Positions 26,012 through 63,567 of a stretch of 64,000 bases of DNA are shown piece by piece. How positions within the stretch are numbered: position 1 is the first letter of the stretch; every line of letters starts with the position of its first letter. The stretch is from the NCBI GenBank assembly GCA_942159475.1, contig OW804096.1:12263871-12327870 (forward strand), given 5' to 3'. A model generated the notes under the pieces. It saw only the letters and a program-made list of their open reading frames with translations. It made no database searches and had not been told where the DNA came from. This stretch comes from Sthenelais limicola (lineage: Eukaryota > Annelida > Polychaeta > Phyllodocida > Sigalionidae). The translations under genes and the position numbers were made by a program.

Positions 26012-28966
26012 CTAAAAGGGGGATAGAAGACGTTCAGTGTATTTCTTGAACGCATATTTGTCTTCTATTCTATGTGCTTCCGAACTGAGGTTATTCCATC
26101 GAGTTTGTGCTTTATAAATTACTGAATCAGTAATTTTTGTTAATTTAGAGTTGAGGACTATTAAATTTCGTTTGCCACTGGCATGACTTCTCGTTGGGAG
26201 AAGTCTAGTGTCCAGGTTCAATGGGCTTTGGGCTAGGTAACGGGCTATGTCAAGGATATGCTTATTTCTTCTCACCTGTAACGGCCAAATATTTAAAAGT
26301 TTGTGTTCCTCATCCACGTTATCATATTTTGTTTTATTGAAAATTATCCTCAAAGCTAGGTTTTGCTGGGTTTGCAATTTCTGTAGTAATGTCTTAGGGG
26401 CGGAATCATAAATAAAATCACAAAAATCAAGGTTAGGCAAGATGGCCATCTTGTAGAGATCATGCTTAGCTTTGGGGGTCAGTGCACTCCTCGCTCTATA
26501 AAGTAATCTAATTTTAGACGTAACTAGTTTTAATGTGTTTTGGACATGCGGTTTAAAAGTTAGAAGATCATCCAGTATAAAGCCTAAGTACTTATACTCG
26601 TGAACTTCCTCTAAAATCGATTTGCCCAAAGTGAGGGAATGATTTGAGTTTTGAGGTGTACATTTGGAGGCACGACTGACCGCGAACGACATTGACTTAC
26701 ACTTTGTAGCATTCAGAGACAATTTGTTAATGGCACACCAAGAGTTTACACTTTTCAGGTCCTCCTGGAGGTAATAATGTAAGGTGTCACTATTTTGATG
26801 ATGGTAAAAGAGAACTGTATCGTCCGCATAGTGTTGAATACTTGCGTGCTTGATAACAGATTGCAAATCATTGATGTAGATAGTAAATAATATGGGACCC
26901 AGGATAGTGCCTTGAGGTACACCACAAGTGACAGTCCCTTCTTTAGATCGAAGGCCATTTACAGTAACAAATTGATTTCTGTTTTTTAAATAGTTAGAAA
27001 ACCAGAGCAGCTCCATACCATGTATTCCATATAGCTCTAATTTATTTAATAAAATCGAATGATGAACCGTGTCGAATGCTTTGCTAAAGTCTAAGAAAAC
27101 TGTTTTGTTAAGTAATTTTTTATTAAGATTTGTATAAATTTTGTTAAGAAAGTCAATTTGTGCTTGCTGGATGGAGTGCTCTGGTCTAAAACCATATTGG
27201 TTGGGGCTGAACAGACCGTTCTTTTCAAAATGATTTGAAAGCTGAGTCTGCACAACTTTTTCCAAGATTTTGGCCGGGAGGGAAATACACGATATTGGCC
27301 TGTAATTGTTGGTGGCCATCTTGCCACCTGCCTTGTAAAGAGGTGTAACTCGGGCTATCTTAAAACAGTTAGGTACCTTGCCCAATAGTAAGGAAACGTT
27401 GACAATATGAGTAAATTGATCAGTCAATGATAACAGGCATGATTTCAAAATTGGTGCTGGAAGGTATTCGATTCCAGAGTTCTTGGATGCATCGATTTTA
27501 GCTATAATTTTATGTAACTCAGTTGGGGTGATTTCTGAAAACTGAAATTCAGGTACAATTCTGGAGGAGTCCATGATATCAATAGGGTTTGGAGGGAGTG
27601 AGTCAGTCAGCGGGGGAATTTTTTCAGCTAGATTGGGACCCACATTCAAAAAGAAATCGTTGAATGCGTCAGGGACTTCCGAGGAGTCGATCATTTGACC
27701 ATCCTTTTCAATGTTAATAGGGTTACTCTTTTTTATCTTATCTGGGCTTATCAGTGGGCGTAGGAAGTCCCAATACTTTTTGGGATTTTTATCATGAAAT
27801 TCAAGATTAGCTTTGATATAATCAGCTTTAGCAGCTCTACTTCTGCGATTTGTTTGACTTCGCAAAAGTCTAGCCTTCTGCAAAGTTTCAATATTCTTGG
27901 TCTTTTTCGCCTCTCGGAAGAGCTTGTCCCGCTTATTCATTAACTGCACTAGATCATCTGTCATCCACTTTGGTTTTGTTCTGACCTGCCGAAACTCCTT
28001 AAGTGGGCACATTTTATCAAGGTAAAATGTGATAGCGCCTAATAGAAGCTCCCAGCATTTTTCGGGGTCTGGGGTATTATAAAAGGATTTCCAGTCAAGA
28101 TTTAATAGGATTTCATTGAGGACTCTTTGGTCCAGGAACCTAGTGCTTCTGGCCCAAAAGGTCTCCACATTGTACCGATTTCGTGCCTTCTTTCTTGTTA
28201 AGAAAATTGGGAAGTGATCTGATATACAAATATCCAATATTCCAGCTGTATTTACATGCGGAGAGTTCGAGTAGAAATGATCAATGGTCGTCTGCGATTT
28301 GAGAGTGGATCTGGTGGGTTTCTTTATATATTGAGTTAGCGAATAACTATCTATTAGGTTCCTTATTTCAGAGGAGAGATTGGTTTTTGAACTTTTGATT
28401 ACATTAAAGTCCAAGTTAAAGTCCCCCATAAGGTATAATTCATGAGAGCTGTTAATTTTAGATAAAATGTTTTGCAGGCTTTCAACTAGTGCTGTAGTAC
28501 AGCCGCTAGGCGGCCTGTAAACATTCAGAATAGTACATCCTTTATTGAAACCTTTCTTAATGAAAGCAACTTGCACCTCTAAATCTTTGTTTGAGACGTT
28601 TAGCTCCTTATAAATTTCAGTATCCACTACCAGACCATTCCTGAAATACATGCAGAGACCGCCACCTCTCTTTCTGACCTTCCTATCTAATCTATACAGA
28701 GAATAATTTTGGAGCTGTAATAAGTTATCATGTGTGCTCGAGTTAAGCCACGTTTCACTAAATCCAATGATATCAATATCAGAGTCACTAGTGAGCAACT
28801 CGATTTGTTCTATATGCTTATAAAGGCTCCTAATATTCCAGGAAACCAACTTGATTCCCTTTAAACGTTTTAGGTCGTCAAAGGAATGTAGCAGGGTGCT
28901 ACCCACGTCCGAATTCATGAGAATTCGATCTTCCTTTGACGCACCAACAACTAGAGGAACAGGCAT
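26012..28966 (-). CDS. LINE ORF2: endonuclease-reverse transcriptase, CR1/L2-group, second family
   Basis: An uninterrupted 984-residue ORF. Residues about 36-257 are the EEP endonuclease: N44 in SWNIRS, E71 in SETWLN, D182/N184 in GDFNLD, and S249-D250-H251. Residues about 535-800 are the reverse transcriptase: NNYRPISCISLP, DFSKAFD at 626-632, GVPQGTILGP from 682, YADD at 713-716 and YKYLGFILD. The C-terminal part (TLLQKLQTQQNLALRIIF) is the usual post-RT region of CR1/L2-type proteins. It differs throughout from the other LINE protein in the window, so it is another family. No frameshift or stop is visible and all catalytic residues are present. There is no ORF1 upstream, so the copy is probably 5'-truncated but could still supply protein in trans. 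The start used is the first ATG; a second one is at residue 17. Confidence 0.95.
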   Translation of the reverse strand: MPVPLVVGASKEDRILMNSDVGSTLLHSFDDLKRLKGIKLVSWNIRSLYKHIEQIELLTSDSDIDIIGFSETWLNSSTHDNLLQLQNYSLYRLDRKVRKRGGGLCMYFRNGLVVDTEIYKELNVSNKDLEVQVAFIKKGFNKGCTILNVYRPPSGCTTALVESLQNILSKINSSHELYLMGDFNLDFNVIKSSKTNLSSEIRNLIDSYSLTQYIKKPTRSTLKSQTTIDHFYSNSPHVNTAGILDICISDHFPIFLTRKKARNRYNVETFWARSTRFLDQRVLNEILLNLDWKSFYNTPDPEKCWELLLGAITFYLDKMCPLKEFRQVRTKPKWMTDDLVQLMNKRDKLFREAKKTKNIETLQKARLLRSQTNRRSRAAKADYIKANLEFHDKNPKKYWDFLRPLISPDKIKKSNPINIEKDGQMIDSSEVPDAFNDFFLNVGPNLAEKIPPLTDSLPPNPIDIMDSSRIVPEFQFSEITPTELHKIIAKIDASKNSGIEYLPAPILKSCLLSLTDQFTHIVNVSLLLGKVPNCFKIARVTPLYKAGGKMATNNYRPISCISLPAKILEKVVQTQLSNHFEKNGLFSPNQYGFRPEHSIQQAQIDFLNKIYTNLNKKLLNKTVFLDFSKAFDTVHHSILLNKLELYGIHGMELLWFSNYLKNRNQFVTVNGLRSKEGTVTCGVPQGTILGPILFTIYINDLQSVIKHASIQHYADDTVLFYHHQNSDTLHYYLQEDLKSVNSWCAINKLSLNATKCKSMSFAVSRASKCTPQNSNHSLTLGKSILEEVHEYKYLGFILDDLLTFKPHVQNTLKLVTSKIRLLYRARSALTPKAKHDLYKMAILPNLDFCDFIYDSAPKTLLQKLQTQQNLALRIIFNKTKYDNVDEEHKLLNIWPLQVRRNKHILDIARYLAQSPLNLDTRLLPTRSHASGKRNLIVLNSKLTKITDSVIYKAQTRWNNLSSEAHRIEDKYAFKKYTERLLSPF

Positions 28967-29659
28967 TGGTAAATAGCAGTACCGAACAAAATATTGATAC
29001 TGCTAATAGCATCAAGGACCAAAGAGACAGGGAAATAGTTAATTATTTACATTCTTCAATCTATTTCTTGCTGCCATAAATTTTACAAAAAAAGTTTTTT
29101 CACAGAATTTTCATCAGAACAACAAATTATCATTAATCCTTCTTTTTCATTAGTAACAACATGTTTGGGAAAGTTCATTGGGCTGCTGTAATCAATGCAC
29201 ATATTCAATAAAGATTATTACAAGTTAATGGGTTGATCATTATGAGATAATTCACGCGGTGAGACTATTCATGAGGTAGAGTAGCATGACAATATTAATA
29301 TTATTATAAGTTGTGTAGTTATATAATTCAATAAACACATTCATGCGTGATACATCAATGGCATTCAGCGATCATTTGAAACCTTCACCGGCTCAGACAG
29401 TAATTAGAACGGTGATACCCAGTAACACATTATATTTTATTTTATTTTATTTTAGTTGAAAGTCCAGACTCATCGATCTTAATCGATGAATGTCTCTAAT
29501 CACTGAATATACAATGCAGAGTTTGTATTACAGATAGGGGTTCAGATTTTCATAGTAACTGTTAAGTCCTATGAACTCATACAAACTATCTATACTGTCT
29601 AGATTAGGTCGGCCATTACCTATCACCTCCATTGTTTGTTGAATAAACAAAATCATTGT

Positions 29660-55097: not shown

Positions 55098-55122
55098 TTT
55101 TTTTTTGTTTTTTTTTACTGAT

Positions 55123-55128
55123 TTTATT
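55123..55128 (-). promoter_or_regulatory. Poly(A) signal AATAAA of the NADAR LINE
   Basis: AATAAA on the minus strand about 6 bases before the A-rich tail. This spacing is short for cleavage-polyadenylation but normal for LINE 3' ends. Confidence 0.7.
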
Positions 55129-55517
55129 TATCCAGCTTCTCAAAACAAATACACATGATATAGTCGAGAACAGGTAACACAATACAGATTCTGTGGCGTT
55201 CCACCTGCTGCTGCAGTCTACTTTAGATTAACATATCCGGTTAGAAATAATACTACGTTTCCGGTGAATTAGTCGATACGGTATAATATAGTACAGAGCA
55301 TGGTAAAAAAACAATGGTTACAAACAAGGTTTACATAATGGTAATGATGACTTACAGATTTGTTACAGTACACACAATGCAGTGAGAGGTAACTTCGTAC
55401 CTCCAACAGTGTGCAATGAAAGAATTAGAGATGTACAATATAGATAGAGTGTTGTTGTAGCAGAGAGTGATTAGACAGCAATACTAAGTTGGTGTCTGCC
55501 TAAAAGAGAGAGCTATG

Positions 55518-58500
55518 TTACTGATCTGATTTTAGCATGATTAGGGCTTTGTTTTTAAATGTTCTTGAATCTTGTTCATTTTTTATTGCCTTTGGTAGCT
55601 CGTTCCAAAGTGTACCTCCAGAGAAGGCAGGCGTGCGTCTGCACGCCTCCCTTTTTGGGCGAGGGATCGGGAGGTTATAGATGGAGGAGGCCCTAGTGTC
55701 TCTGGTTTTGTTAGAGGTAGATGGGTTGGGGGGGGGACCGCTGTGGGCCCTTCTGTGCATAAGGAGGAGGAGTTGGAGGGTGCGCCTAGATTGTAGGGGG
55801 AGGAGATTGTATTTGGACATAATATTGTCCACATTGCTGGTTCTCTTTGATAGAGAGGCAATGCGGACTGCTCTCCTGAGTGTTCTTTCCAGTTTTTCTT
55901 TAGATGTGGCATTTGCCATGTCCAGAAAGCAGGAATTGAATTCTAGGTGTGGGAGGATCGTAGTTTTAAGAATTCTGAAGGCTATTTTTTGCGAAAGGAA
56001 GGGTCGGATTCTTGCAAATGTGGCCATAGCCGCATTTGCGTTCCGGAGAGTCAGTTTAATTTGTTGGGTTGATTTCAGGTGGTCGTCAATTGTGGACCCT
56101 AGGTATTTAAACTCGTTTACTATGGCAATTGGGGCGCCATTGATGACAAATTGTAGTGGGCTGCACTGGGGAGGGGTTCTGGGTTTTGGGGGAGGGAATA
56201 GTACCATGACTTTAGTTTTTTGTGCATTGATCGTCAGTTTGTTTATTCCACACCAGTTTTCTAGGTGTGGGATAGACATAGAGAGGACCCTTGCAGCATC
56301 GTCGATGGTTTCGGCAGAAGTGTATAGGACGGTATCATCAGCATAGAGTTGACAGGAGATGGGAGAGGGGTTGGTGGAGGTGATGTAGGAGGGAAGGGAG
56401 TTGATATAGAGGTTGAATAGGAGAGGGCCAAGGATGGACCCCTGAGGGACGCCTGTGGAGAGAGAGGCTTGGGGGGATAGAGTATCCCCAATCTTTGTTT
56501 TCTGTGATCTTCCATTGAGGTAGCTGGAATACCATGATATGGTTTCTGGGTGGAAGTTTATGGCCGAGAGTTTATTGGTCAGAATTGAGTGGTCTATTGT
56601 GTCGAAAGCTTTTTTCATGTCGATAAAGAGGGCTATTGTTGATTGTTTGTTGTTGCAGTTGTTAGTGATGTCGTCTATGATTTCAGAGATAGCTATTTGG
56701 GTTGATCTTCCTTTGCGAAAACCAAACTGTTTCGGATGTAGGAGGCCAAAAGATTCAAGGTGATCGTAAGTCTGGGAGTGCACAATGCGTTCTAGTACTT
56801 TACCCGGGACAGGTAGGAGTGAGATTGGCCTAAGATCAGAAGGAGACTGTGGAGATTTTACTTTTGGAAGCGGGACAACGGTTGCTACTTTCCAGGCCTT
56901 TGGGAAGATCGCAGTTTCAATTGAGGATGAGAATAGATGGGTGAATTGCGGCAGCAGGACCTGCATGGCAATCTTGAGCAGTCTAGTGTTAAGATTGGGG
57001 ATGCCAGAGGGCTTTTTAATGTCCAGGCTATCTACAATTTCAGCTACTTCTTGTTCAGGGATAGGTTTGAGTGTGAATAAGGGTGTCGAGGTTTGGGTGA
57101 GAGGGTTCAGGTCGGGAGTGGTGAGGGGTGGTGGGTTTGGGATGGCGTTAGCTAATTTCGGGCCAATATTGGCGAAGAAAGAGTTCACATGAGAGGGGAG
57201 GTCATGAGTTTTAATTCCAGGTAGGGAGAACATCGCTTTACCCTTCTTACTGGGTAGGAGCTTTTTCATTTCAAGCCAGAATTTAGATGGATCACTAGCA
57301 TGATTATCAAGATAGGTCGAAATGTAATGTTTTCTGGATGATCTAATGAGGGAGTTAACCTTGTTTCTAAGGGCTCTACTAAGATCCCACACATTAGGGT
57401 CGTTGAGGATTCTCGCTTTGCGGAGGAAATAGTTTCTGTCTGCTATTGCTTCCAGAATTTCAGTGTTGATCCATGGGGGATTCGAGGAGGGGAGCCGTAT
57501 TTGAGTGATAGGGCAGATCTGATCGGCAGCAGATACTATGTGAGAGTAGAGAGAATCCCAGATGTCATCTGGGTTGTTTGAGGTGGATATGTCCGGGGGG
57601 TTGGATAGAAGAAGATTCTTATATGTGTCATAGGAGAAATTACGAAAGGATCTGCCATGTTTGGTGACCATTGGGGTTAAGCGTTTTTCTTTTTTCCTGA
57701 GGAGAAATACTGGTTGGTGGTCACTGATATTTGTCATCAGAACACCTGATTTCGATACGTATTTTATATTTGAGAAGATTAAGTCAATAGTGGTGGAGGA
57801 CAATTTTGATACTCTGGTAAATTCAGAGATGTGTTGGGTCAGATGGTGTTGTTGGGCCCAGTTGGCTAGTTCAGTTTTGGCTGGTTTAGCTGAGGACATG
57901 TCTACGTTTAGGTCCCCGAGAATTAGCAGTTCATGTTTTTCTAAGTCATGTATGTTACTGAGGGATTCGTTCAGATAGGATATGAAAGGTGGGATTGTTG
58001 TGGAGGGAGGGCGGTAGATGTTTGCCACTATGATGGGTTTGAGATTTGGGTGGCGAATGGTAAACCATTGGGCCTCAACTATATGGGAGGATTGATTGAG
58101 GTGAGAGAGTGAGAGTGAGTCTACAGTAAGATTTGATTTTACATAGACTGCGACACCACCACCCCTGGGGACAGTCCCAGAAGTAATGTAAGTGCGGTCA
58201 AGTCTGTGTAGGTCGTAGCCTTGTAGGCTGAGTTGACTGTCAGAGGTTGTGTCAGTAAGCCATGACTCAGAGATAGAAATTACATCAATGCCCGAATCAT
58301 GGAATTCAGCAATAAATGGGGCATAGTTCTTAATTAGGCTCCTAATGTTTAGGTGTAAGAAACTGATACCCCTTTCCTTGCCAAGGTCCTTAGGGGACCT
58401 GATTTGGGGTTTGGCAGTAGGTGGCTGCTTGCTTTTCTTAATTCCTCTACGGCGAGGGCGATTTTTCCTCACATGAGGGTGATTACGAATTATGGGTGCA

Positions 58501-58559
58501 GGTACAGAGGGAGCAGTGCTCCCTGAGTATGTCCCCATGCTAGTGCCTTGGCTCGGCAT
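55518..58559 (-). CDS. LINE ORF2: endonuclease-reverse transcriptase, CR1-group
   Basis: An uninterrupted 1,013-residue ORF with the two enzymes of a non-LTR retrotransposon. Residues about 64-290 are an apurinic-like (EEP) endonuclease that would nick target DNA: N71 in HLNIRS, E98 in SESWL, D216/N218 in GDLNVD, and S279-D280-H281. Residues about 555-830 are the reverse transcriptase: DMKKAFD at 647-653, GVPQGSILGP from 703 and the catalytic YADD at 739-742, then KYLG in the thumb-proximal region. The N-terminus (31-44) is Arg/Lys-rich and could bind nucleic acid or act as a nuclear signal. There is no RNase H or zinc-knuckle region that I can see. The EEP-plus-RT plan and an esterase-like domain upstream fit the CR1/L2 group of the Jockey superfamily; I cannot place the clade. 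All catalytic motifs are present and no stop or frameshift is seen, so the copy may be young. The start chosen is the first ATG. Confidence 0.95.
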   Translation of the reverse strand: MPSQGTSMGTYSGSTAPSVPAPIIRNHPHVRKNRPRRRGIKKSKQPPTAKPQIRSPKDLGKERGISFLHLNIRSLIKNYAPFIAEFHDSGIDVISISESWLTDTTSDSQLSLQGYDLHRLDRTYITSGTVPRGGGVAVYVKSNLTVDSLSLSHLNQSSHIVEAQWFTIRHPNLKPIIVANIYRPPSTTIPPFISYLNESLSNIHDLEKHELLILGDLNVDMSSAKPAKTELANWAQQHHLTQHISEFTRVSKLSSTTIDLIFSNIKYVSKSGVLMTNISDHQPVFLLRKKEKRLTPMVTKHGRSFRNFSYDTYKNLLLSNPPDISTSNNPDDIWDSLYSHIVSAADQICPITQIRLPSSNPPWINTEILEAIADRNYFLRKARILNDPNVWDLSRALRNKVNSLIRSSRKHYISTYLDNHASDPSKFWLEMKKLLPSKKGKAMFSLPGIKTHDLPSHVNSFFANIGPKLANAIPNPPPLTTPDLNPLTQTSTPLFTLKPIPEQEVAEIVDSLDIKKPSGIPNLNTRLLKIAMQVLLPQFTHLFSSSIETAIFPKAWKVATVVPLPKVKSPQSPSDLRPISLLPVPGKVLERIVHSQTYDHLESFGLLHPKQFGFRKGRSTQIAISEIIDDITNNCNNKQSTIALFIDMKKAFDTIDHSILTNKLSAINFHPETISWYSSYLNGRSQKTKIGDTLSPQASLSTGVPQGSILGPLLFNLYINSLPSYITSTNPSPISCQLYADDTVLYTSAETIDDAARVLSMSIPHLENWCGINKLTINAQKTKVMVLFPPPKPRTPPQCSPLQFVINGAPIAIVNEFKYLGSTIDDHLKSTQQIKLTLRNANAAMATFARIRPFLSQKIAFRILKTTILPHLEFNSCFLDMANATSKEKLERTLRRAVRIASLSKRTSNVDNIMSKYNLLPLQSRRTLQLLLLMHRRAHSGPPPNPSTSNKTRDTRASSIYNLPIPRPKREACRRTPAFSGGTLWNELPKAIKNEQDSRTFKNKALIMLKSDQ

Positions 58560-58779
58560 ATTCTAGGTAATGCGGTTTCTGAGCTAGAATTTGGTGCCCA
58601 ATAAATGCTTATAATCGTAATAAGCTAAGTACAATGAAAAATCAGCGCTGTGTGATAAGATAGGAGTGATGGGTGATGGGATGAGTGGGTGAGGGAGGCA
58701 TACCTCTGCCCCTTGGGCAGTGGGTTTGCGTGTGAGCAAAGGGTGTCGGACAGGGGAATAAATTCCCCTGTCCGAGGTA

Positions 58780-59600
58780 GGGTTGGTTAGTGCAGAGGAA
58801 CTATATCCTTGCTCAGACCTACCCTATGGACGGTACATTAGTTTGATACAAATAGGTACATCAGGTGCATCAAAAAATGCTGCTAGTAATAGAAAGGTTC
58901 GTTGTAATCTGAAGACTGGTGGAGAGGAACTATATCCTGTCGCATTCCTTGATTATGTTATAGCTTTGACAAGATAATTAAACATGCAATAGACTAGATC
59001 ATGGTTTCGATGCAAACAAATTCATACATTTTATCACATGTGATACTGGTTAGTGGGGGGCACGAGGGGGATCAGAGATGTCTGAGAGGAACTGTATCCT
59101 ATCAGACTACCGATCACCCCCCCATCCTCCTGATTGATAAAGTAAATATATGTTACTAGCAGAGCTAGAGTAAAACCCATTACGATGATATGCATATACA
59201 GTTAAATTCAGTTCATGACAATACATGAGATTCTAGGTAGTAGGAGGTATGAGGGGGAGCAGAGGTGTCGGAGAGGAACTGTATCCTATCAGACTACCGA
59301 TCACCCCCCCCATCCTCTTGATAGGGATTCAAATGTATGATTACTAGCAGAGCTAGAGTAAAACCGTTTACAGTGATATACATATACAGAGAAAAATGTG
59401 GTACAATATAATGAGATTCTAGTTACATTCGTGTGACGCTTATCAACCAGATATGCATATACAGTCAAATCATTACAAATGTAATGCAATACATGAGATT
59501 CCATTTATAAGGAGGCAGAGGGGGATCAGGGGTGTCGGAGAGGAACTGTATCCTCTTTAGAGCACCGAATACCCTCCCATTCTCCTCACAGGGATAGCAA
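58780..59600 (-). repeat. Tandem repeats in the ORF1-ORF2 spacer
   Basis: A block containing GAGAGGAACTGTATCCT (plus strand) recurs at about 58793, 58920, 59090, 59270 and 59540, mostly followed by a C-run and CATCCTC, and between the later copies by TTACTAGCAGAGCTAGAGTAA and an ATGCATATACAG stretch. Copies are diverged and spaced 127-270 bases apart. Inside a LINE such arrays can be promoter or translation elements for the downstream ORF; nothing here proves that. Confidence 0.75.
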
Positions 59601-59886
59601 TTTCACATATTACTTAGAAAGGTTATGGGGGAACGACCCATTATATAACATATAATATTGGTGTGATGTTCATCACGAGATATCCATGTGTTTAGATGCG
59701 CATGTCTGGGTAATTAAATAAATAGATTAGTACAGTGTTGTCAGTAGACAGTTCTAGAGTAATAACCTGCTATTATATGTATGATACAATATACTTATGA
59801 CAAACAGTAATTGTGAACTAAACACATAATTATGAACTATATACAGGGTAGTAAATACGGCGATCTAGACAATTGACGGGTATTTT

Positions 59887-60591
59887 TTATGTTAGAAGAG
59901 AGTTAGAAGAGATAGCACGGACGATGTTTGCTGCCCAGTTCCGTTTTGCGGAATTAGTTAGGTGGCAGCCATCACTTAGTCTTTCGTATCTGTGCTTGAA
60001 AGATCCATTTGGTTTCCTTTTGTGCACCACAGTGGAGAGGTAAGGCGTAAGTGACTTGTTTGCTTTGTTGAAGGTTGAGATTTGGTGGTTTAAATCTAAT
60101 ATTGTCTCATTGAGGGTGTCTTGTTGGTGGTGGGTGACACCCTCTGGTAGTCGATTATAGGTGGCAAGGTTGACACCGGGGAACTGGGCAAATGCTACCT
60201 TCGCTTGGGGAGCAATGCGGGTCGTTGCATGGAAGCATAGTGCTATGTTGTTTGTAATAGTAGAGATTGCTTCATTAGGTGAGTTGTGTGCAAAATTCAC
60301 CTTTCAGGTGAAGAATGGCCGTTGAGTGATTGGGTCAAAGGATTCAACTTTTATTCTTTCTGTTACTTCGCAAATGCCATTAATAAATAATATCAGAGAT
60401 GGTTTATAAGAGAGGATGGTTTGCTTGGCTCTGTTGAGTGCTGTGATGTAACTTGCACCACCAAAGGAGAGGAGAATGTGGTTATTACTATTTAGGCCAT
60501 GTGAGTTCAGGAAGGTTTGTAGCCCTTTACCCCTAGAATCACTGATGATGAGTGTTCTGTAACCATGGGGGATGGATAGTGTTTGAGGCAT
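59887..60591 (-). pseudogene. SGNH/GDSL esterase-like ORF of the LINE, one in-frame TGA
   Basis: This frame starts at an ATG overlapping the last 53 bases of the NADAR ORF, in +1 phase. It runs 95 codons, hits TGA (60304-60306), then continues open for 138 more codons. The conceptual product has SGNH hydrolase signatures in order: LIISDSRG with the likely nucleophile S19; the block II Gly in SFGGAS; INGICE with N71; and SDGCHLT with D207 and H210, as in the DxxH block. CR1 ORF1 proteins are known to carry esterase domains of this type, thought to help with lipid or membrane contact. The frame change and the TGA together suggest decay of a domain once fused to ORF1; a separate overlapping ORF, or +1 slippage at the CCC-C run near 60575, are alternatives. 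The TGA has no readthrough context I recognise. Confidence 0.72.
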
Positions 60592-63193
60592 GGTTGTGCG
60601 AGATAAAGTTTGAAAGAATAGGTAGCAGGAGATGTTGGATTAAATGACTAAACTCACTATTGGTCGTTTGACTGTTTTGTGCTGCGTATTGCGGAGGATA
60701 GTAGTGAGGGAGTGCAGTTGGTTGAGGCGGTCCTGAGCACGGGGCCGACAGCCCGGTTGGCGGTAGAGGAGGGGCCTGGTGTCCGGGTGTCGGTGGTGTT
60801 AGAGCGTGCTGTGGTGGAGATGAGGCCTGTGGGAGCCAGGCAGGGCTCGGTGGGTATGGTGGCGGTGGATGTTGTGGTGCCCTCGGTAGGTGCAAGGCTG
60901 CGAGCGTCGTTGTTGGAGGGGCAGCGTGCTGGGCTTGGTATAGATGGAGTGTATTCTCCTGCATAGGTTGGTGCTGTGGCGAGTGCTTACCAGCAGTTAC
61001 GTTGGCGTAAGTGTGCCGGTCGTTGCCGGGGTGGGCTCCGGGTGAGTGTTTCAGGTCGTTCGTTGAACCAGGGTATGGGCCTAGTAGTCCTGGTTGTGAA
61101 GCGATGTAGGGCGGGGGCCTACTTGGCTGGATTTTGGAGGATTGTTTGGTGAAGGCTGAAGTGTGCTTGGCCGAGAATGTAGGGGGCAGGACTTGTGTGC
61201 TGACCGAGTGAGGTGGTTGAGAAGTATGCTGACTTAGTGGGCGTGGCGTATCGATGCGCCTGCGCGTCCTGGGTTTGGCTTGCTTCAATGTGTGCGTGAC
61301 TGTATTTATTCCAACTAAGGCCGGCCCATTTCGGTGTGGCTTGTCATTGGGGTAGTTTGATTGGCTTGAGTTAGGTAGTCTCTCATTGGTTGAGGTGATA
61401 GGTGGAGGACACCTGTGGTGTGGATGATGTGTTGTTACATTGACATTGCTGGGGGTAACTGTAATGGGCGGTGTGTTCACACCGTCACGTGGGGTGCTAT
61501 CTTTAACCTGGTTGGTTGCTGGGTGAGAGGGGGAGGTGTTGTTTATGTTGCCCGTGTTGGATTGTGCGGTGAGTGCTGAGTCGATCGTGCCAGGATGTGT
61601 GGGAGTTGCTATTGTTTGTGGGTTTGTGGAGGGCCGATTGTGGGCGCCTTGAAGTCTGGGTGCAGTGTATTCTTGTTCGATATGGAGGTGGCCATAGATT
61701 TCCCGGGGAATAGTGGGGAGAAACTGCTGGGTGGGTAATTCATTCCTTAGGCAGGTTAATAAATTCCCCAATCTATTTTCTCCGGGATAAGATTTGTGAG
61801 AATGAATATCGACATTCCTGATGCCGATACCCCAGAAATTATCGGTTGTCTTCTCTAATAAAGATCTGGGAGCTGTGGCAGCTAGGGCTGCAGCTAGGTG
61901 GGGATTTTGAAGAAATTTTGCTCTAATTAGACCTTCCATAGTTTGGAGTTTAATGTTGTCCCACTCAGCTGATTTCAATTCTGAGCCCAGTTGTTTTTGT
62001 TCAAAAGGATTCTTGGAGGCATAGATCTTAGTAGCGATATCGATTGAAGGTGATTTGAGAAATAGGGCTTTCTGATGCTGATAGCCTTTTTCGACAGAGT
62101 CATATGGGATGTCATTGAAAGTGAAGTGGCATTCAAACATGTTAGAGAGGAAGCTTTGTGGTGAAGAGAAATAGATAGCTTCATCATTGCCAAAATTAGC
62201 AATGTTGTGTGGTTTTAGGTTTGAGGGAACCTGTTGCAGATTGGTTAGTTGGTAAGATTGGTCATTGAGAATTAACTCATGCTGGAGGAGCTGTGAAGGA
62301 ACTTTATCCTTCCTCGCTTTGGCACAGATGATTCCAGCAGTTTTTCTAAGAGATATAGTTTTTTGACCCACTATGTCATTAACTGACATGTTGAAGGATT
62401 TCAGGATGTTTGCTCTATTATCACAAATAGCTTTGGCAGTTGAATGGCGAACAAATTTGATAGTAGCGACATGTAGTTTCGTCACATTGTCTTGAGTAAT
62501 GCTGTAATTACTAATGTCTAATGGATGGAATTGGATGTTTGCTCGAGAGCAGATTTGATGTAAGAGTTCATAAATGACTACATCTTCAGGTACACCCGAA
62601 ATTGTTATTGATTGTTCGAATGTGGAGTTAAATACACTTTCTAACCTTTCGTCGAGTTGAGAAATCTGGTGCTGCATGACTAGTAAAGAGTTCCATGGAG
62701 GTTGAGTATAGTCCAGTGGGCTCTTTAGAGTTGTTGGCGACGGGCCTTGAGATTCACAGAGGCCGTTGGAGACAGTGTTGTTTGCGGGAGCTGTGCTTGC
62801 TTGAGCCGTTGGTGATGGTCGCTTGGCCCCTTCATCGATGTTCGCCAGTAGCATCCCCCGTAGAGTTGCAATCTCAGCACGTAACTTATCCAATTCATTT
62901 GAATTAGAATCACTAGTGGTATTCTCTTGCTTATCCTTATCATGCTGGGTCATTATGACGAGAGTAGGTTGATCTACTTCTGTAATTCCATCGCTATCTA
63001 GAGAGTCAAAAGGGTCCCTAGTATATAAGAGACCTTCAGTGCTGGCGGCGGGGCTGGTAGGTAGGCGTCCGTTGTCGCCATCTTGGAACGCTGAGTTTAG
63101 TGGTGTTGATGTGCGGATAGGAGAGTTTCCTACTAATTCCTGAGAATCAACCACTACAATAGAATTATAGTGCGCCATTGTTGTAAAGAACAC
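60539..63193 (-). CDS. LINE ORF1: coiled coil, RRM-like, NADAR domain, Pro-rich tail
   Basis: An 884-residue ORF upstream of the EEP-RT ORF on the same strand. Residues 97-118 (NELDKLRAEIATLRGMLL) look like a short coiled coil. Residues about 195-290 begin ITISGVPED and resemble the RRM-like fold of LINE ORF1 proteins. Residues about 339-487 match the NADAR domain: FLSNMF (348-353), SVEKGYQHQKAL with E368, FWGIG (453-457) and GENRLG (471-476). Known NADAR proteins (YbiA family) hydrolyse N-glycosidic bonds in riboflavin-pathway intermediates or remove ADP-ribose from nucleic acid. Residues about 515-850 are low-complexity, rich in Pro, Ser, Thr and His. ORF1 proteins usually coat the element RNA; a glycosidase activity here is inference. 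A second in-frame ATG is at residue 6. The ORF ends in the frame next to the esterase-like reading frame, overlapping it by 53 bases. Confidence 0.88.
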   Translation of the reverse strand: MFFTTMAHYNSIVVVDSQELVGNSPIRTSTPLNSAFQDGDNGRLPTSPAASTEGLLYTRDPFDSLDSDGITEVDQPTLVIMTQHDKDKQENTTSDSNSNELDKLRAEIATLRGMLLANIDEGAKRPSPTAQASTAPANNTVSNGLCESQGPSPTTLKSPLDYTQPPWNSLLVMQHQISQLDERLESVFNSTFEQSITISGVPEDVVIYELLHQICSRANIQFHPLDISNYSITQDNVTKLHVATIKFVRHSTAKAICDNRANILKSFNMSVNDIVGQKTISLRKTAGIICAKARKDKVPSQLLQHELILNDQSYQLTNLQQVPSNLKPHNIANFGNDEAIYFSSPQSFLSNMFECHFTFNDIPYDSVEKGYQHQKALFLKSPSIDIATKIYASKNPFEQKQLGSELKSAEWDNIKLQTMEGLIRAKFLQNPHLAAALAATAPRSLLEKTTDNFWGIGIRNVDIHSHKSYPGENRLGNLLTCLRNELPTQQFLPTIPREIYGHLHIEQEYTAPRLQGAHNRPSTNPQTIATPTHPGTIDSALTAQSNTGNINNTSPSHPATNQVKDSTPRDGVNTPPITVTPSNVNVTTHHPHHRCPPPITSTNERLPNSSQSNYPNDKPHRNGPALVGINTVTHTLKQAKPRTRRRIDTPRPLSQHTSQPPHSVSTQVLPPTFSAKHTSAFTKQSSKIQPSRPPPYIASQPGLLGPYPGSTNDLKHSPGAHPGNDRHTYANVTAGKHSPQHQPMQENTLHLYQAQHAAPPTTTLAALHLPRAPQHPPPPYPPSPAWLPQASSPPQHALTPPTPGHQAPPLPPTGLSAPCSGPPQPTALPHYYPPQYAAQNSQTTNSEFSHLIQHLLLPILSNFISHNHASNTIHPPWLQNTHHQ
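61733..62179 (-). other. NADAR domain inside LINE ORF1
   Basis: Residues 339-487 of the ORF1 protein. In order: an aromatic strand then the FxSNM turn; YDSVEKGYQHQKAL, equivalent to the PSVEHAYQAQKA block that carries the catalytic Glu in YbiA-type proteins; KNPFEQKQLG, equivalent to the P-x-E-A-K-x-x-G helix; WDNIKLQTMEGLIRAKFLQN, the conserved W-x(7)-M-x(3)-L-x-x-KF block; LLEKTTDNFWGIG; and GENRLGNLL near the end. Every block of the family that I know is present and in order, with no gap, so the fold and active site appear intact. I made the assignment by eye, without a profile search. Confidence 0.88.
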
Positions 63194-63399
63194 AATTGCG
63201 CATCGAATGAAGTATAGTAGAGTGAGGTATGAAGATAATTGACGGTGATAATCCTAATAATGCACACAGCGCTGTGCGGGCACGTCTTACTCGTGCGACA
63301 TCTTAGACCTCTACTCGAAGAGCTATATTTCTATGGCAGCAAGTTATTCGCAATTCATTGAGACTTAGTTTATCATAATGAATGGGCATGCAGCTATAA

Positions 63400-63567
63400 A
63401 ACGTATATAGATGGAACATAGCAAGGGGGAAGTCTGTACACTTGTTATTGACCGAGGGAGTGCGGGAAGTTAGAGGGCGTTAGCCCGAGATCCTCCGCAC
63501 TCCCGAGGTCACTAACAAGTGTACAGACTTCCCCCGAGCTTTGTTCTATATTTATTACACCCCATTA
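63400..63567. mobile_element. Foldback element with ~80-bp arms
   Basis: GGGGGAAGTCTGTACACTTG (63429-63448) is mirrored by CAAGTGTACAGACTTCCCCC at 63516-63535. The pairing extends inward to GGGCGTTAGCCC at the centre and outward into GTATATAGATGGAACA against TGTTCTATATTTATTAC. It lies just upstream of the NADAR LINE. Confidence 0.8.

Follow-up and report, generated by a model that had tools for sequence, protein, structure and literature searches.

The window analysed here is a stretch of 64,000 nucleotides from the genome of the annelid Sthenelais limicola (contig OW804096.1, positions 12,263,871 to 12,327,870), and it holds a long interspersed nuclear element (LINE) whose first open reading frame (ORF1) encodes a NADAR domain of the YbiA type. 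The whole copy lies on the minus strand (55099..63306, about 8.2 kb), with its 5' end near 63306 and a poly(A)-like 3' tail near 55099. ORF1 (60542..63253, minus strand) is an open frame of 904 amino acids, with its first methionine at residue 26, in which a coiled coil and RNA recognition motif (RRM) are followed by the NADAR domain and a proline-rich tail. ORF2 (55521..58562, minus strand, 1014 amino acids) encodes an EEP endonuclease and a reverse transcriptase (RT) with the motifs GVPQGS and YADD; its Pfam matches (RVT_1, E 2.1e-38; Exo_endo_phos, E 2.3e-9) place within one frame both enzymes by which a LINE is recognized. The frame at 60542-63253 is identified as the LINE ORF1 because it is located 5' of this endonuclease-reverse transcriptase frame.

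The host genome has four other copies of ORF1, with 99-100% identity to it over 903-904 residues and no stops. All four share the 5' boundary at about 63306 (63301-63313 in the four alignments) amid unrelated flanks, and three also agree in their 3' end and poly(A), which lay beyond the sequence retrieved for the fourth. The dispersed copies thus define the 5' boundary in the window and four other places and the 3' boundary in the window and three. Since these boundaries are common to other copies, the window copy is a full-length LINE, and the near-identity of the copies suggests recent movement. A search of the flanks of the window copy for a target-site duplication gave nothing convincing, the best exact match being 10 nt long and off the boundaries.

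The NADAR domain of ORF1

A search with hmmscan matched Pfam PF08719 (NADAR) to ORF1 residues 364-506 (61736..62164, minus strand) at 96.6 bits against a cut-off of 35.1 (E 2.4e-27), while the three further Pfam rows of that search were all under their own cut-offs. At E<=1 the region matched two sequences of known structure, YbiA 2b3w (E 2.1e-7) and NADAR 8bau (E 8.2e-7). As judged by these E-values, chance is excluded as the source of the sequence match, and the predicted fold is that of YbiA. Profile score, predicted fold, and catalytic and ligand residues all place the domain in the NADAR/YbiA family. A preliminary description, made from the letters of the window, had proposed a NADAR domain inside a LINE ORF1 protein; the PF08719 match and the neighboring endonuclease-RT frame confirm it. 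The sequence blocks it named are all present and in the right order, with one correction to the central helix, which reads W-x7-M-x2-L-x3-KF rather than M-x3-L-x2-KF. Its pocket glutamate E368 is real and corresponds to E388 in our stop-to-stop numbering, which runs 20 higher. The GENRLG block is also present, with a glutamate (E492) that varies among relatives.

The stretch before NADAR contains the end of the coiled coil, the RRM and a presumed C-terminal domain (CTD) at residues ~185-350 (62204..62701, minus strand). Used alone, it matched nothing relevant in the PDB. A profile built from 14 pre-NADAR stretches (A8) had as its best PDB match human LINE-1 ORF1 protein (ORF1p; 2yko), at a modest E of 1.5e-4 and over the coiled coil and RRM, not the CTD. 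This modest match suggests that the coiled coil and RRM are homologous to those of LINE-1 ORF1p, as in a type II ORF1. Among the matches listed (25 Pfam families), no member of A8 matched a LINE ORF1 model. The structural model of the pre-NADAR part predicts a helix followed by a beta-alpha-beta-beta-alpha block of pLDDT 51-74; residues 105-166 of that model, where the presumed CTD lies, fall below 50, and no LINE ORF1p structure was among the matches listed. Beyond NADAR, the C-terminal tail (60542..61735, minus strand) is rich in proline, threonine and serine.

Conservation of the active site

Pocket residues were numbered according to section 12 of PMC11543638 and mapped by alignment to 8bau, the NADAR of P. 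nicotianae. Identical residues in ORF1 are E388 (E43), K395 (K50), K420 (K75), G423 (G78), W431 (W89), E467 (E125), D471 (D130) and W474 (W133). The counterpart of the catalytic E125, a mark of the YbiA subfamily, is therefore present as E467, within LLEKTTDNFW. We examined these positions in 35 aligned sequences, 24 from the host genome (window included) and 11 from elsewhere. The equivalents of E43 and E125 are kept in all 35, and the K50 position is always lysine or arginine. Aspartate occupies the D130 position in 34 (asparagine in locus L052), and the W133 position holds tryptophan in 32 and phenylalanine in three. The glutamate of GENRLG varies widely across the same set. Note that a lysine-to-arginine change at the K50 place in the E. 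coli C7 NADAR is described as retaining activity in vitro and losing antitoxin function (PMC11543638).

NADAR-bearing relatives

The host assembly (1.13 Gb, 161 contigs) yielded 5561 first-look NADAR candidates. The best 150 were scored and every one exceeded the cut-off; 148 were free of stops, a proportion that comes from the top of the candidate list and is a biased sample for intactness. Twenty of the 150 places, picked for spread (L039-L058), were fetched; with L059, L060 and L061, three loci related to the window element, they make up a set of 23 loci. An RT segment occurs in frames downstream of NADAR in 18 of the 20, and L040 retains endonuclease and RT only as fragments. With ORF1 as query, 50 scored of 18904 candidates gave 53 matches; below the near-identical copies, many are frames of 750-904 amino acids with 27-72% identity, and some of them contain stops. 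The preliminary description had set a one-off capture of a host exon as a test, and this notion fails, since NADAR is retained both in related copies and in divergent LINE lineages within one genome. Separately, L056 (G000 C1:94855254-94855679) is a stand-alone NADAR frame of 162 amino acids with no RT match within 10 kb, and two more stand-alone frames of 162 amino acids lie on C1; they are possibly a host NADAR gene or copies of an exon.

A protein search that used ORF1 residues 185-515 together with P0002 yielded 27 proteins. In eight of them (P0004, P0007, P0008, P0009, P0013, P0014, P0015 and P0021), inspection by eye and alignment A6 show a NADAR at the C-terminus along with a coiled coil and an RRM-like region. 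P0009 matched Transposase_22 (E 1.8e-4) at 22.2 bits, slightly under the cut-off of 22.4; the other seven had no match to it at E<=1, for P0004 among the best 25 of 45 rows. P0004 aligned with LINE-1 ORF1p at E 0.013. From these sequences, the architecture seems recurrent outside the host genome. In a further protein, P0017 (316 amino acids), RNase H (E 2.2e-24) precedes NADAR (E 2.4e-44), which may be one more capture of NADAR by a retroelement.

Selection on ORF1

Ratios of dN/dS were estimated for 17 pairs by the pairwise Nei-Gojobori method. The check on NADAR across copies that had been proposed gives 0.04-0.08 in the five usable pairs: 0.06 (window-L060), 0.08 (L059-L060), 0.04 (L041-L046), 0.07 (L044-L053) and 0.08 (L045-L048). 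The ORF1 tail gives, for the same pairs and in the same order, 0.43, 0.37, 0.31, 0.22 and 0.34, and 0.39 for window-L059. For window-L060, dN alone is 0.082 in NADAR versus 0.241 in the tail. Codon bootstraps of four pairs placed the upper ends for NADAR at 0.09-0.18 and the lower ends for the tail at 0.18-0.32, with no overlap within a pair; any resample whose dS was saturated counted as zero, so the lower bounds are biased downward. Elsewhere in the element, unsaturated pairs gave 0.08-0.09 for RT, 0.08-0.17 for the endonuclease, and 0.11-0.14 for the part of a small SGNH-like frame beyond its overlap with ORF1 (0.06-0.07 for the latter half of that frame in the window copy). NADAR is under strong purifying selection, with constraint about equal to that of the reverse transcriptase. 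Because it is kept about as strictly as the copying enzyme, NADAR probably matters for jumping.

Synonymous change is uneven along ORF1. Between the window element and L060, dS is about 0.6 in the tail and N-terminus versus 1.2-1.3 in RRM and NADAR, and with L060 and L059 together the ranges are 0.56-0.77 and at least 1.2. The lower values, about half of the higher ones or less, may reflect composition, constraint or recombination.

History and clade of the element

Trees of RT and NADAR were compared on their common rows, the RT pieces of L039, L040, L043, L044 and L057 being too short. As far as rows are common, four lineages were recovered in both trees: the window element with L059, L060 and L061; L042, L054 and L058; L047, L051 and L053; and L041, L045, L046, L048, L050, L052 and L055. 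The recovery of the same lineages in both indicates that NADAR was inherited with the element inside lineages. For any count of NADAR gains, deep nodes are weak and three of the six rows of other ORF1s are less than half filled.

The motif GVPQGS occurs in 16 of 19 RT rows; L052 has GVAQGS, the second LINE of the window has GVPQGT, and L045 was unmatched by the script. Human L1 has TRQGC at this place, and the window RT domain scores 64 bits to human L1 versus 225 bits to the second LINE. GVPQGS is the usual form in the Jockey superfamily (CR1, L2); RQGC is that of L1/Tx1, Tx1 belonging to the L1 group. The RT motif thus offers a lead to the clade of the window LINE. The second LINE is represented by an open ORF2 (26015-29002, minus strand, 996 amino acids, 33% identical to that of the window element), with no frame longer than 118 amino acids within 5 kb upstream.

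Other features of the element and its flanks

In the window copy, the end of ORF1 is overlapped, in a different frame, by a small SGNH-like frame (ORF1b, 59887..60591, minus strand) with one in-frame TGA. A script motif found such a frame, overlapping ORF1 or close behind it in a different frame or nearly so, in 13 of the 23 loci, one of them 124 amino acids long, and L059, L060 and L061 have intact versions of 250-252 amino acids. Eleven aligned frames have DSRG, G, GIC and DGxH in common, with Ser (block I), Gly (block II) and D-x-x-H (block V) invariant and a cysteine at the expected asparagine of block III. Their profile had as best PDB match the GDSL lipase 3p94 (E 0.21), and two of the 11 matched Lipase_GDSL_2 (best E 0.006). 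With cysteine for the block III asparagine and such weak GDSL matches, we rejected the assignment of ORF1b as an SGNH esterase and retain the label SGNH-like. Among the 20 loci L039-L058 the motif was found in 10; it was absent from L039, L041, L045, L046, L048, L050, L052 and L055, as well as from L040 and L056. The division of the RT tree largely agrees with its presence (two changes).

The non-coding gap between ORF1b and ORF2 (58563..59886, minus strand) contains five hairpins with the tip AGGATAYAGTTCCTC, at 58795-58809, 58924-58938, 59086-59100, 59273-59287 and 59540-59554 (minus strand). With up to two mismatches the tip matches six places in the window, the sixth inside ORF1, against a chance mean of 0.31. 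The same gap carries five hairpins in L059, four in L060 and three in L061, with stems that have diverged and mostly still pair; 200 kb of 20 other loci contained none. Fold z-scores are -2.9, -1.8, -3.3, -0.4 and -6.3, the last for a stretch that holds another hairpin. The hairpins are possibly a packaging or ORF2-translation signal.

Just 5' of the LINE, a 61-nt inverted repeat (63405-63465 and 63495-63555, 85% complementary, arms 29 nt apart) looks like a small foldback element. In the flanks of the copy on C9 (L064 and L065), inspection by eye shows part of the 5' flank repeated in inverted orientation on the 3' side, as if that copy sat in a palindromic element.

Proposed function of the NADAR domain

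We propose that ORF1 combines a coiled-coil/RRM protein that packages RNA with a catalytically competent YbiA-type NADAR that removes ADP-ribose from nucleic acid and so undoes a host modification, a proposal whose chances, from the sequences compared here, we put at about even. Carried by ORF1p on the LINE ribonucleoprotein (RNP), the domain would sit on LINE RNA, near target-primed cDNA, where it would hydrolyse ADP-ribose from the element RNA, the cDNA or the nicked target and reverse modification by host ADP-ribosyltransferases. The strict conservation of the pocket would find its simplest explanation in catalysis on ADP-ribosylated nucleic acid, and guanine-linked ADP-ribose in DNA is what tested NADARs are described as removing (PMC11543638, PMC11125620). 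NADAR activity, its substrate and its counter-defence purpose are each what we infer, and counter-defence is the most attractive reason for the domain. That hosts ADP-ribosylate guanine of retrotransposon nucleic acid as a defence, and that LINE lineages survive by an eraser on ORF1p in a conflict like that of DarT and NADAR, is a more specific idea and a somewhat doubtful one.

Several observations weigh against this proposal. ORF1 also exceeds the cut-off of the NCBIfam model TIGR02464 (79.8 bits against 73.7), an equivalog for a riboflavin-intermediate N-glycosidase. Substrate specificity may differ, because R79 and R93 of 8bau are replaced by S424 and K435. NADAR dS was saturated in 11 of the 17 pairs and zero in one, and one of the five used, L044-L053, has a dS of 3.18, near saturation. 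Finally, the deep joins of the trees differ, RT uniting the second and third lineages (97/97) and NADAR the third and fourth (89/88), possibly through exchange or poor resolution.

The TIGR02464 match agrees with a small-molecule or RNA-repair role, in which NADAR would act close to the RNP to clear N-glycosides such as ADP-ribose derivatives or NAD-type caps. A link between NADARs and RNA repair has been drawn (PMC9503650), and SNA-3, an essential protein of nematode trans-splicing, is reported to need its NADAR residues (PMC9303266). However, fusion to an RNA-packaging protein points toward a target that is nucleic acid or bound to the RNP, and metabolic clean-up would not need to ride on an RNP, so that we regard this role as unlikely. 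The same placement on ORF1p would suit a binding module that recognizes ADP-ribose and so guides the RNP to chromatin or DNA nicks bearing this mark, where target-primed reverse transcription would follow, and the conserved residues do also touch ligand (PMC11543638). Yet the invariance of the E43 and E125 equivalents seems to go beyond the needs of binding alone, and all NADAR/YbiA proteins tested in PMC11125620 hydrolysed guanosine-ADP-ribose, which makes mere binding distinctly unlikely. It is very unlikely that NADAR strips ADP-ribose from proteins, such as ORF1p, ORF2p or chromatin proteins modified by PARP: for the Macro and NADAR domains of animal RNA viruses, ADP-ribosylation of macromolecules has been suggested as the target (PMC9503650), but the de-ADP-ribosylation by NADARs documented so far in these sources is on guanine in nucleic acid. 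A functionless passenger captured from a host exon, for which the stand-alone frame of L056 could be the source, is scarcely credible given the low dN/dS of NADAR, its occurrence in several LINE lineages and the long open frames.

The strict conservation of NADAR argues that it probably does something the element needs. If removal of ADP-ribose from nucleic acid is indeed its function, the ORF1p of NADAR LINEs would be an enzyme-bearing RNP protein, and a direct test would open of whether ADP-ribosylation of nucleic acid restrains eukaryotic retrotransposons. ADP-ribosyl-guanine, the substrate proposed here, is open to immediate assay.

Comparison with known systems

The preliminary description knew of no standard LINE description with this domain. 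However, one sentence of PMC12477816 records that several Crassostrea gigas LINEs assigned to Tx1 have a NADAR-like domain in ORF1, apparently the only paper in the open-licence literature in which we found the link; Table 1 of Metcalfe and Casane (PMC4120745), which gives the ORF1 domains of 448 Jockey-superfamily elements, has no NADAR. An architecture mentioned in print only in passing thus proves, in at least one genome, to be that of a large family. The C. gigas elements resemble the window LINE in carrying a YbiA-family NADAR within ORF1, but they were assigned to Tx1, whereas the RTs found here have GVPQGS where human L1 has TRQGC, and in the window element an SGNH-like frame overlaps ORF1. 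Ectocarpus Gypsy elements have likewise captured NADAR; these are, in contrast, elements with long terminal repeats (LTRs) in a brown alga, with NADAR in the N-terminal region of Pol. RNA processing is suggested in the same paper (PMC12477816).

In ZfL2-1 and other CR1/L2 LINEs whose ORF1 encodes an esterase, an SGNH-type domain likewise precedes ORF2 (PMC3905857, PMC4120745). In the window element this domain is instead a separate overlapping frame that follows a coiled-coil/RRM/NADAR ORF1, and unlike those esterases it has cysteine at the expected block III asparagine. Both 8bau and YbiA 2b3w share the fold of the window NADAR, and 8bau also E43, K50, E125, D130 and W133; they are, however, stand-alone enzymes, and 8bau differs at the two arginines noted above. 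The polyproteins of animal positive-strand RNA viruses offer another case of NADAR on an RNA-based selfish element, one that depends on an RNA-dependent RNA polymerase and not on target-primed reverse transcription (PMC9503650).
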